The notes beneath the pieces are model-generated. The model was given only the letters and a program-made list of their open reading frames with translations, did no database searches and was not told where the DNA came from. Shown one piece after another: positions 52,399 to 55,350 of a DNA stretch of 64,000 nt. The stretch comes from Armatimonadota bacterium (GTDB taxonomy: Bacteria; Armatimonadota; Chthonomonadetes; Chthonomonadales; Chthonomonadaceae). The position numbers and the translations under genes are program-made. The stretch spans positions 186,001-250,000 of the forward strand of contig JAGWMJ010000001.1 in assembly GCA_028871815.1 (NCBI GenBank), in the 5' to 3' direction. How positions within the stretch are numbered: position 1 is the first letter of the stretch; each line of letters starts with the position of its first letter.

Positions 52399-55050
52399 TT
52401 AGTACGAGAACGAATAGAGGTAGTTAATTACGGAGCCGGTGTTTGTGATGGAGTAGACCACGCCGCTGCCGTAGCCGCCTCCAGCGGCGGTGGTCCCAAA
52501 CAGCAGGCCGTTGGAGTCCGCCACAAGCGTGGCATAAGGCGACGACCCGTCGCCGGCGCCCGGGTTGATCGCGTCGTAGCCCGAGAACGAGTGAATCTGC
52601 GAGTAGACGGAGTTCGAGAGGTCGAACGAGAAGATGGCGCCGAGGTTGTCGTAGCCGCCCTGGTAGGTCTCGCCGTACAGAGTGCCATCGGAAAGCAACA
52701 GGCCCGCGAGAGGCTTGTCGCCGTCGCTTGCGGGATTGTTCGGGCCGAGGTACCCGGTAAACGTATGCAACGGCGCGTAGGTCCCGGCTGTAGTGACCGC
52801 GAACAGCACGCCTTTGCCGCTCGAGCCCCCGGAATCCGTCACGCCATAGAGCGTACTGCCCGACATAATTAACGGCGCGTAGGGATTGGCGCCGTCGGCG
52901 CCGCCGAACGAGTGGAGCTTGCTGGTGATGGTGCCGGCGGTGTTCATCTCGAACAGTTCGCCCGCGTCGTTTCCGCCGCCAGAGAAGCTGGCGCCCCACA
53001 GGTTGTTCGAGCTGTCTATCAGAAACCCGGCGTAGCAGTTCGCTGGCTCGCTGTTCGCCGGGAATGAGTGGTTATAACCACTGAAGTTATGGATGGTGAT
53101 GAAGTTGGTTCCGTCTTGGTCGATCTTGAACGCGGTGCCCATGCCATCGGTGCCTCCGGCATAGGTTGTGCCATATAGCACCCCGCCGCTGTCCTGCGCC
53201 AGCGCGCAGTACGGCATCGCCCCGTCCGCGCCGTCGAAGGAGTGGAGGACAGTCAGGTTCGTCGCTGGATTCTGGTTCGTCAGGTCGATCCGCCACACAT
53301 CCCCGTGGCCCGACGCGCCACCGTTGACCGCGGTTCCATATAGATAGTTACCGATGAGGAGCGGCGTTCCGTACGGATCCTCGCCGTCCGGACCACTGAA
53401 CGCGTGTATTTGTGTGTATACGCCTCCGGGGCTCGTAATCGAGTAGACCGCGCCGCCAGTGTAACTTCCGCCGTTGACGGCAGTTCCATAGAACACGTCC
53501 GGCGCACCCTGCGCAAGCCCAGATGCGGGATACGCACCGTCGATGACTACCTTCGCCCACGTTACGGCCCACGGCATGGTCGACGGGTAGAAGGAGTACT
53601 CCTGGATCGTCCACATGTCGGAATCGTTCACCGGGTCGACAACGGACGTAGTGAAATCGCCCCATCGGTTCAGAGGCGGCACCTCGCTGTCGGGCACGTT
53701 ATAGTTGATCCTGCCGCCTTCAAAGAGCCGGTCCAGTCTGAAGGCGTCAATCGCGTCACCACCGGCCCGAAAAGCATAATCGGCGCTCGGAAACTGATCC
53801 ACCGAGAAGCTGGAGTATCCGAGCAGCACATCGTTATTGACATTGGCGGCGATACCGCCGTACGCATAGGAGACAACGCCGTTGGGATCCTGCAGAATGC
53901 CGGTCTGCTGTACGGTGCCCGAAGTGCTGAGCTGCCACCATTGCACGCCAGCCTGCGTCGGCGAGGCGGCCGGCTCACCCACCGATTGCGCCAGCCAGAT
54001 CGAGCCGTTTCGGAAGCAGCACGAGTTCACACGGTCGTCGAAGATGGCAATGTCGTTGCCACCGCTCTGCGGCAAGTGGTTGCCGGACCAGTCGGCGAAC
54101 GATGACGTTGTGGGGCTTGCAACATAGTCCAGAGCCGCGCCGCCCCCGGAGCCGGTTACCCTGTACAGTTGCACCTGGTCGTCTTGACGATTTGTGGGCG
54201 CAGCCGTATTGGCCGCAATATAGAGATCTGGCTGGGAGCTGCTGTACGTCACGGCGGGCGTTGGGCTGCCAACGGTCGTGGGCGTGACGTTGAACGCCTG
54301 CGCCGCCAGCGCTCCGTCTCGAGGCACCGCGTAGAGGCTGCTTTTCTCGAAGACCCACACGACCGATTTGCTGAAAGTGCTACTCCCCACCGGGACGGCA
54401 TTCAGGCCGATCGCGACCCACGAGGTGTTGAAGCCTGTGCTGGGATAGTCGTACCAGGTCTGGCCACTTGCGTCGTCGCGGAATGCCCAGCCGTTCCAGA
54501 ACTGCGCCGGGTCGTCGCCTTGTGTCGCAGCGATTAGGACCATGGCGTTCGCCGTGTTCCAATTCGCTATCGCGGTAGCAATGTACCGGTCCGAGTAGGG
54601 GTCATACAGGAAGTGCGGGTCCGTCACTTTGTCGAAAGAGTCTCCTGTGACGCTCTCCCAGAATGACAAAAGGTTTGCGTCATAGGTCAGATTGCCGGCG
54701 CGGTCGGTCACCACAACCATATAGTTTGAGCCCGTGAGGATGTAGCTCTTCCCAACAGCGCCCTCGGTGTCTGGCGGCGCGCCGGCGTTACCGCCGAGGT
54801 CGCCGACGATACTGATGGTTTCGGTTGGCGCGGGGGAGAGGATGTTTGTCACCGGGCTGAAGGACTGCGGCGCCGCCGAGCCGCTGGACGTGCTGCCGCC
54901 GTCGGACGCCGTCGCTATTGGTGCGGCGCCAAAGTTGCCTGCGCCGGGAAAAGCGGGCGGGAGGTCCGCGAGCCGGCACCAGCCAGAGGAGACGAGCGTT
55001 GGAGCCGCGCCGCGCGTTTGCGCGCTGGAGGTGCGCGCCACCGTCGTCAA
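52399..55050 (-). CDS. Exported GloVer tandem-repeat protein, currently out of frame with its signal-peptide start
   Basis: The long frame has about 883 residues from TTG 55050. The C-terminal 370 residues hold about seven repeats of roughly 52 residues of the choice-of-anchor GloVer type (for example LYGTTYAGGTDGMGTAFKI and LFGTTAAGGGYGSGVVYSI). The N-terminal 470 residues have no signature I know. Codons upstream of 55050 in this frame encode a perfect signal peptide (FGPALSVAALLVGLTTVA ending TSSAQ) but no start codon before a stop at 55162. ATG 55175 is two bases out of phase across a (GA)14 tract. Role likely cell surface; function unknown. Confidence 0.8.
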   Translation of the reverse strand: MTTVARTSSAQTRGAAPTLVSSGWCRLADLPPAFPGAGNFGAAPIATASDGGSTSSGSAAPQSFSPVTNILSPAPTETISIVGDLGGNAGAPPDTEGAVGKSYILTGSNYMVVVTDRAGNLTYDANLLSFWESVTGDSFDKVTDPHFLYDPYSDRYIATAIANWNTANAMVLIAATQGDDPAQFWNGWAFRDDASGQTWYDYPSTGFNTSWVAIGLNAVPVGSSTFSKSVVWVFEKSSLYAVPRDGALAAQAFNVTPTTVGSPTPAVTYSSSQPDLYIAANTAAPTNRQDDQVQLYRVTGSGGGAALDYVASPTTSSFADWSGNHLPQSGGNDIAIFDDRVNSCCFRNGSIWLAQSVGEPAASPTQAGVQWWQLSTSGTVQQTGILQDPNGVVSYAYGGIAANVNNDVLLGYSSFSVDQFPSADYAFRAGGDAIDAFRLDRLFEGGRINYNVPDSEVPPLNRWGDFTTSVVDPVNDSDMWTIQEYSFYPSTMPWAVTWAKVVIDGAYPASGLAQGAPDVFYGTAVNGGSYTGGAVYSITSPGGVYTQIHAFSGPDGEDPYGTPLLIGNYLYGTAVNGGASGHGDVWRIDLTNQNPATNLTVLHSFDGADGAMPYCALAQDSGGVLYGTTYAGGTDGMGTAFKIDQDGTNFITIHNFSGYNHSFPANSEPANCYAGFLIDSSNNLWGASFSGGGNDAGELFEMNTAGTITSKLHSFGGADGANPYAPLIMSGSTLYGVTDSGGSSGKGVLFAVTTAGTYAPLHTFTGYLGPNNPASDGDKPLAGLLLSDGTLYGETYQGGYDNLGAIFSFDLSNSVYSQIHSFSGYDAINPGAGDGSSPYATLVADSNGLLFGTTAAGGGYGSGVVYSITNTGSVINYLYSFSY

Positions 55051-55114
55051 GCCGACAAGGAGGGCTGCAACGGAAAGGGCTGGACCGAATCGCCTGAAAC
55101 GGCGGGCGGACTCA

Positions 55115-55142
55115 GAGAGAGAGAGAGAGAGAGAGAGAGAGA
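55115..55142. repeat. (GA)14 dinucleotide tract in the 5' end of the GloVer-protein gene
   Basis: Fourteen uninterrupted GA units (TC on the coding strand) lie between ATG 55175 and the signal-peptide codons. All three frames through the tract read Ser-Leu repeats without stops. Loss of one unit, or gain of two, would join ATG 55175 to the 52399-55050 frame and give a 924-residue protein with a normal signal peptide. Confidence 0.9.
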
Positions 55143-55225
55143 CGAACCGCCCGCCCGCTTGCTAACGGCGATCATGGTCGGTACACACCTTTCTGCGCCG
55201 GTTTGTGACGGTGCCTCTTCAATCC

Positions 55226-55231
55226 ATTCTA
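55226..55231 (-). promoter_or_regulatory. Possible -10 element for the GloVer-protein gene
   Basis: TAGAAT on the minus strand (5 of 6) would start transcription near 55219, leaving a leader of about 45 nt before ATG 55175, which is preceded by AAAGGTG. The -35 is poor. Confidence 0.25.
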
Positions 55232-55350
55232 CCACATCGCGTAACGTGCCGCTTGATTCCCAACCGGCTGCCTCGCCCGGCCCGACGGGCCTTGCGGCGG
55301 TTCATCGAGGGCGGCCGGCGAGGGATCAATGCGGTGCAAAACCGACCGGT

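Follow-up and report, generated by a model that had tools for sequence, protein, structure and literature searches.

A pure TC dinucleotide tract ahead of a signal peptide as a probable phase-variation switch of a GloVer-repeat protein in an Armatimonadota bacterium

The window, by which we mean the whole 64-kb stretch of DNA that was analyzed, carries on its minus strand a gene for a protein of 883 residues with GloVer repeats. The NCBIfam model TIGR03803 matches this protein in seven stretches with a score of 245.3 bits (curated cut-off, 44), and no Pfam match was found in it. Read along the minus strand, the gene, which extends to position 52399, is preceded in order by a TAGAAT sequence, an AAAGGTG sequence, an ATG at 55175, eleven leader codons, a (TC)14.5 tract, and a segment encoding a signal peptide. 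The features are as follows.

55226 to 55231, minus strand: TAGAAT, a possible -10 box, with a counterpart of similar sequence at the matching place in both C2 and C16, two further copies of the locus
55186 to 55192, minus strand: AAAGGTG, a putative Shine-Dalgarno-like sequence, with a spacing of 10 nt to the ATG at 55175
55173 to 55175, minus strand: ATG opening the leader frame through the tract (MIAVSKRAGGS-SLSLSL...), conserved in paralogue C2
55162 to 55164, minus strand: TAG closing the gene frame upstream of the tract
55114 to 55142, minus strand: the (TC)14.5 tract (AG on the plus strand), encoding Ser-Leu repeats in all three frames and stop-free in each
55021 to 55104, minus strand: signal-peptide coding segment RRFRRFGPALSVAALLVGLTTVARTSSA in the gene frame, recognized by eye and hydropathy, with no start of its own before TTG 55050
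52399 to 55050, minus strand: the GloVer-repeat protein, 883 amino acids from TTG 55050 (TIGR03803, E 1.9e-74)
51807 to 52364, minus strand: a small lipoprotein-like gene, with copies at 56% identity

An alignment, a structural model, and a fold search together define a conserved all-beta domain at about residues 75 to 485 of the GloVer protein, and homologues of its N-terminal 430 residues, at 31 to 40% identity, occur in MAGs of several phyla. No (AG)8 run was found in five checked genomes bearing these distant homologues, which are useless for comparison of the leader. The AlphaFold model is all-beta, with a modest pLDDT of 59 (most of the N-terminal domain exceeds 70), the fold search returned multi-propeller proteins at low TM-score, and the modeling supports only an all-beta, propeller-like fold. 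The chain terminates in a GloVer repeat, and searches of Pfam and NCBIfam recognized no cell-wall or outer-membrane anchor. The first-pass annotation of this DNA had called the product a probable surface protein; export is predicted from the signal peptide, given a tract that is in frame, but a surface location is unsupported because no anchor was recognized. The lipoprotein-like gene is probably the second gene of the operon. Just upstream of the locus, on the same strand, lies a methyltransferase-like gene (55351 to 56190) that is seemingly frameshifted, its N-terminal part being readable only in another frame (55926 to 56171); an intact relative is found at 61082 to 61942.

The tract is 29 nt long and 100% pure ((AG)14.5 on the plus strand), and it is the sole dinucleotide array among those listed for the window. 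Under a model of independent, identically distributed bases, a genome of 3.68 Mb is expected to hold by chance about 2e-11 AG runs of 29 nt and 0.002 of 16 nt. Upstream of TTG 55050, which sits where the hydrophobic core ends, the gene frame encodes RRFRRFGPALSVAALLVGLTTVARTSSAQ, and reading of the sequence between the TAG at 55164 to 55162 and TTG 55050 found no ATG, GTG, or TTG in this frame. The first-pass annotation had likewise placed a signal peptide upstream of the sole start, with no initiation codon before the stop at 55162. Signal peptides were called here by hydropathy and eye, without a trained predictor.

The distance from ATG 55175 to the stop codon is 2777 nt, or 2 modulo 3, so that the leader and gene frames lie 2 nt apart and the loss of one unit or the gain of two joins them, giving a product of 924 residues with 13 units or 926 residues with 16. 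Since only such lengths join the frames, the assembled genome is, as judged from the frames, at an OFF length. In these respects the first-pass annotation was accurate: it had an ATG at 55175, preceded by AAAGGTG, missing the signal peptide by two bases, a 924-residue protein with 13 units, joining with 13 or 16 units, and a locus apparently caught in the OFF state. It had also described the tract as (GA)14; the tract is there, but it comprises 14.5 units.

Taken together, these features suggest how the locus might operate. Replication slippage would add or remove TC units, and translation would initiate at ATG 55175, enter the (TC)14.5 tract, and, in the assembled state, exit 2 nt off the signal-peptide register. 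Because the tract contains no stop in any of the three frames, unit number alone would decide which frame continues. With 13 or 16 units, the leader, a (Ser-Leu)n stretch, the signal peptide, and the mature multi-propeller protein would be read as one chain and exported, whereas 14 or 15 units would lead to early termination, and the exported protein would not be made. The OFF state might also lower expression of the downstream lipoprotein gene by polarity. A promoter scan of the region around the tract found no sigma-70 match and, because a full match is absent, TAGAAT is put forward only as a candidate -10 box. A separate candidate, an RNA hairpin formed by the GC-rich inverted repeat GGCGGGCGG/CCGCCCGCC that flanks the tract, was rejected: it folded no better than shuffled sequences (z = 0.43), paralogue C2 lacks the repeat, and the 9-mer of the repeat recurs often in the window.

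A pattern search for (AG)7 found exactly four AG/TC runs of at least seven units in the 3.68-Mb assembly, the first being the window tract before the GloVer signal peptide. The second (C2:973) is a (TC)8.5 run of 17 nt in a decayed GloVer paralogue of 72% identity, where an ATG, a AGCAAGCG motif, and the TC tract, at the matching codon position, recur and where the frames are again 2 nt out of register. The leader of this paralogue (MSTSKRAVS-SLSL...) keeps the ATG, the leader length, and the tract position of the window copy, with a different tract length, 17 versus 29 nt. The third run (C4:126333) lies, out of register, between an ATG preceded by AAAGGGGG and a lipoprotein-type signal. The fourth (C4:170613) lies in an Eco57I/DrmMI-like type IIG gene whose frame breaks downstream of the tract. 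The arrangement seen in the window is thus, by sequence comparison, the same at two more exported-protein leaders and at one restriction-methylase gene of this genome.

That all the long tracts of the genome were assembled out of frame is also what would be seen if the consensus were wrong, a 29-nt dinucleotide run being error-prone in consensus building. The true window tract would then have 13 or 16 units and be in frame, leaving the gene permanently on. An error at one locus, however, leaves unexplained the pure AG/TC runs found between start codons and signal peptides in many genomes, with varied lengths and phases, and an in-frame tract of such purity would still be prone to slippage. We regard an assembly or sequencing error as improbable.

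Duplication has involved the GloVer gene and its small lipoprotein neighbor as a pair, giving C2 (L036:942-2871) and C16 (L037:1-1490), and both of these pairs are decayed, with common internal deletions and a frameshift; in the C16 copy, the tract and signal peptide are deleted. With two of the three copies in this state, and with the neighboring methyltransferase-like gene also looking frameshifted, the window copy might itself be a pseudogene that lost its start and in which a neutral microsatellite grew. Yet the window copy is intact across 883 codons, its dN/dS against C2 is 0.18 (229 codons), the ATG, AAAGG, and leader length are retained, and unrelated genes of other genomes have tracts at the equivalent junction. 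Decay, too, is improbable in our view, a shade more so than misassembly.

Among the 17 genomes of the family, (AG)8 occurs only in this genome and in three genomes of genus g8, and (AC)8 occurs in none. Homopolymeric G10 runs, a possible alternative switch, are common in many genomes of the family, and this genome holds a single one. Each of the three g8 species has exactly one long tract, located between an ATG linked to a Shine-Dalgarno sequence and a signal peptide, and in all three species the tract begins exactly 22 leader codons from the ATG. The registers differ: the frames are joined in G011 and out of frame in G012, and in G013 they are out of frame from the conserved ATG, yet a second ATG is in frame. 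The leaders (L077:6107-6430, L078:2690-3014, and L079:7969-8290) are homologous over 330 nt comprising the 5' region, Shine-Dalgarno sequence, ATG, 22 codons, and GA tract; the exported proteins behind them are mutually unrelated, and their neighborhoods are nonsyntenic. The 330-nt leader looks like a cassette used by different genes. Decayed leaders of this type without a tract are present at L178 and L181. The window itself encodes, on the plus strand at 57949 to 59316, an exported protein without a tract that has 25% identity (E 1e-19) to the tract-controlled 538-residue protein of G012.

The tract might alternatively be a noncoding leader element, with translation starting at TTG 55050 or another noncanonical codon, and in three other genomes of the phylum (G103, G120, and G145) a tract does lie shortly upstream of an exported protein, in the 5' untranslated region. 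A product begun at TTG 55050, at the end of the hydrophobic core, would have no signal peptide, however, and this codon is CTG in C2 and therefore not a conserved start. The other GloVer paralogues of the genome, which have no tract at the start, begin with an ordinary ATG immediately ahead of the signal peptide, and an ATG-to-tract distance of exactly 22 codons in three g8 species also speaks against an untranslated tract. There is very little probability left for this reading.

The same layout extends beyond the family. The order (31 genomes) has nine long AG/TC tracts, and eight of them either separate a start codon from a signal peptide or make up the signal-peptide core; two of these are in G028, a member of another family, where the first precedes a signal peptide and the other constitutes the core of one. 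In the phylum, the layout recurs in G035, G071, G127, G150, and G247, and the tract makes up the signal-peptide core in G028, G127, and G150. About one-third of the loci are in frame, or ON (G011, G071, G127, and G150), with other registers elsewhere, and the presence of both ON and OFF loci is as expected with random phase. Tracts occur in both GA and TC orientations, an argument that what matters is the length of the repeat and not the RNA sequence. Most of these switched exported proteins have no match in Pfam. In G037 (L186), it is an (AC)14 tract, at 1501 to 1528, that separates an ATG from a signal peptide; AG repeats are therefore not a strict requirement of the layout.

Programmed ribosomal frameshifting or transcriptional slippage, yielding a fixed share of full-length protein from DNA of constant length, would fit the equal 2-nt offset of the three exported-protein loci of this genome but scarcely deserves credence, given that relatives are in frame or in different registers and that tracts in both strand orientations leave no fixed slippery sequence conserved.

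To put numbers on the association, we used a mechanical rule, applied on the same strand: an ATG lies no more than 120 nt away, and its frame stays open up to the tract; 100 or more open codons follow the tract; mean hydropathy reaches at least 2.0 in some 12-residue window within 55 residues; and the position is not deep inside a gene. Seven of nine tracts in the order satisfied the rule, as did 10 of 24 overall; the proportion among random positions was 4.5% in the window and 1.3 to 7.5% in nine other loci. The binomial probabilities are 1e-8 to 4e-7 for the order and 4e-8 to 4e-6 for all tracts and are descriptive, because the rule was written after the loci had been seen. (AG)10 occurs in 16 of the 291 genomes of the phylum and (AC)10 in 4; among the 194 good genomes the counts are 13 and 0, respectively (Fisher p = 2e-4).

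We conclude that the locus is very probably a translational phase-variation (contingency) locus operated by slipped-strand mispairing. The tract has the properties looked for in phase variation by simple sequence repeats: it is a pure repeat of many units whose unit length is not a multiple of 3, it lies in what would be a translated region between the start codon and the gene body, where a unit number exists that joins the two, and its position is kept in a homologue with a tract of another length (paralogue C2, with one genome available per species). Phase variation had been proposed at first from the layout of the window locus, and the paralogue, the other tracts of the genome, and the order and phylum now add comparative support. 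Some observations count against it. At about 40 residues, the n-region of the joined protein would be unusually long. Intergenic AG tracts also occur in the phylum, in G103 (its second tract), G205, and G206. Finally, the three exported-protein loci of this genome (window, C2, and C4:126333) are all OFF in one register, a mild coincidence of 1 in 27 if phase is random. In G205 and G206, the intergenic CT tracts (L163, L165, and L166) lie beside a short palindrome, cctcttagaaggggagagg or similar, and a CT tract of G206 is directly upstream of a pilin-like gene (FTLIELLVVIAIIAILAAILFPVF).

The tract in the type IIG/DrmMI-like gene (L035:2764-7348, from G000:C4) is (AG)18, at 6114 to 6149, and the gene adjoins one for a DpdE/DrmD-like helicase, in a defense island. 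After the tract come three similar tandem modules of 32 residues, at 6166, 6279, and 6389 of L035, in frames 1, 0, and 2. Homologues from Chroococcidiopsis and Thermus have one module, which all three match. Frame 2 alone reaches the homologous C-terminus; the other two frames stop soon past their own modules. Modules 1 and 2 agree at 57, 77, and 20% of codon positions 1, 2, and 3, a pattern that is, on sequence grounds, the mark of protein-level conservation in the modules' own frames. The tract and its modules may form a three-position switch. Elsewhere in the phylum, hsdS, a classic class of switched gene, is split by (GA)n exactly between its two PF01420 target-recognition domains in G076 (L170:5122-6445) and G113 (L171:4294-5603), out of frame in both assemblies. 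We tentatively propose, at somewhat below even confidence, that AG/TC tracts are the contingency switch of this phylum, chiefly at start/signal-peptide junctions of exported proteins and in restriction genes, with the type IIG tract serving as a three-position selector.

Most of what is known of phase variation by repeats comes from host-adapted pathogens, in which it is usually explained by immune escape. Recurrence of this architecture at exported-protein and restriction-modification genes of this phylum hints that the driver is more general, for instance phages or grazers, and concrete loci are now at hand for testing this idea. Automatic gene calling will lose signal peptides or break genes in two at the tracts of such genomes. 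No report of phase variation in the GloVer family (TIGR03803) is known to us, and a literature search found none for Armatimonadota, which is weak evidence of absence. The mechanism of slippage is already known; the lineage and the target proteins appear to be new.

Among the closest known systems is oipA of Helicobacter pylori, where slipped-strand mispairing at a CT dinucleotide repeat, located at the 5' end within the signal-peptide coding region, shifts the reading frame of an exported protein (PMC10564699). The window locus resembles oipA and other hop genes in carrying a CT repeat in the region that encodes the signal peptide of such a protein, although its tract precedes the hydrophobic core rather than lying within it. 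Whereas the Hop family forms barrels in the outer membrane of a host pathogen, the window protein is an unrelated GloVer multi-propeller protein of another phylum; it has GloVer repeats and no Pfam match that would place it in the Hop outer-membrane family. In the opa genes of Neisseria, CTCTT pentamers in the leader-peptide coding region toggle an exported protein at several loci per genome (PMC3960869). The leader-region repeat, the on/off control of an exported protein, and the several loci per genome are common to both systems, but the repeat here is a dinucleotide and the proteins are mostly unrelated, unlike the homologous opa genes. For restriction-modification, a type IIG enzyme of Campylobacter jejuni is reported to be phase variable (PMC4889913). 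The type IIG/DrmMI-like gene and the hsdS genes of G076 and G113 resemble such phase-variable genes (type IIG, hsdS, and mod) in carrying simple repeats and differ in that the repeat is (AG)n and that the type IIG gene offers three modules in three frames.
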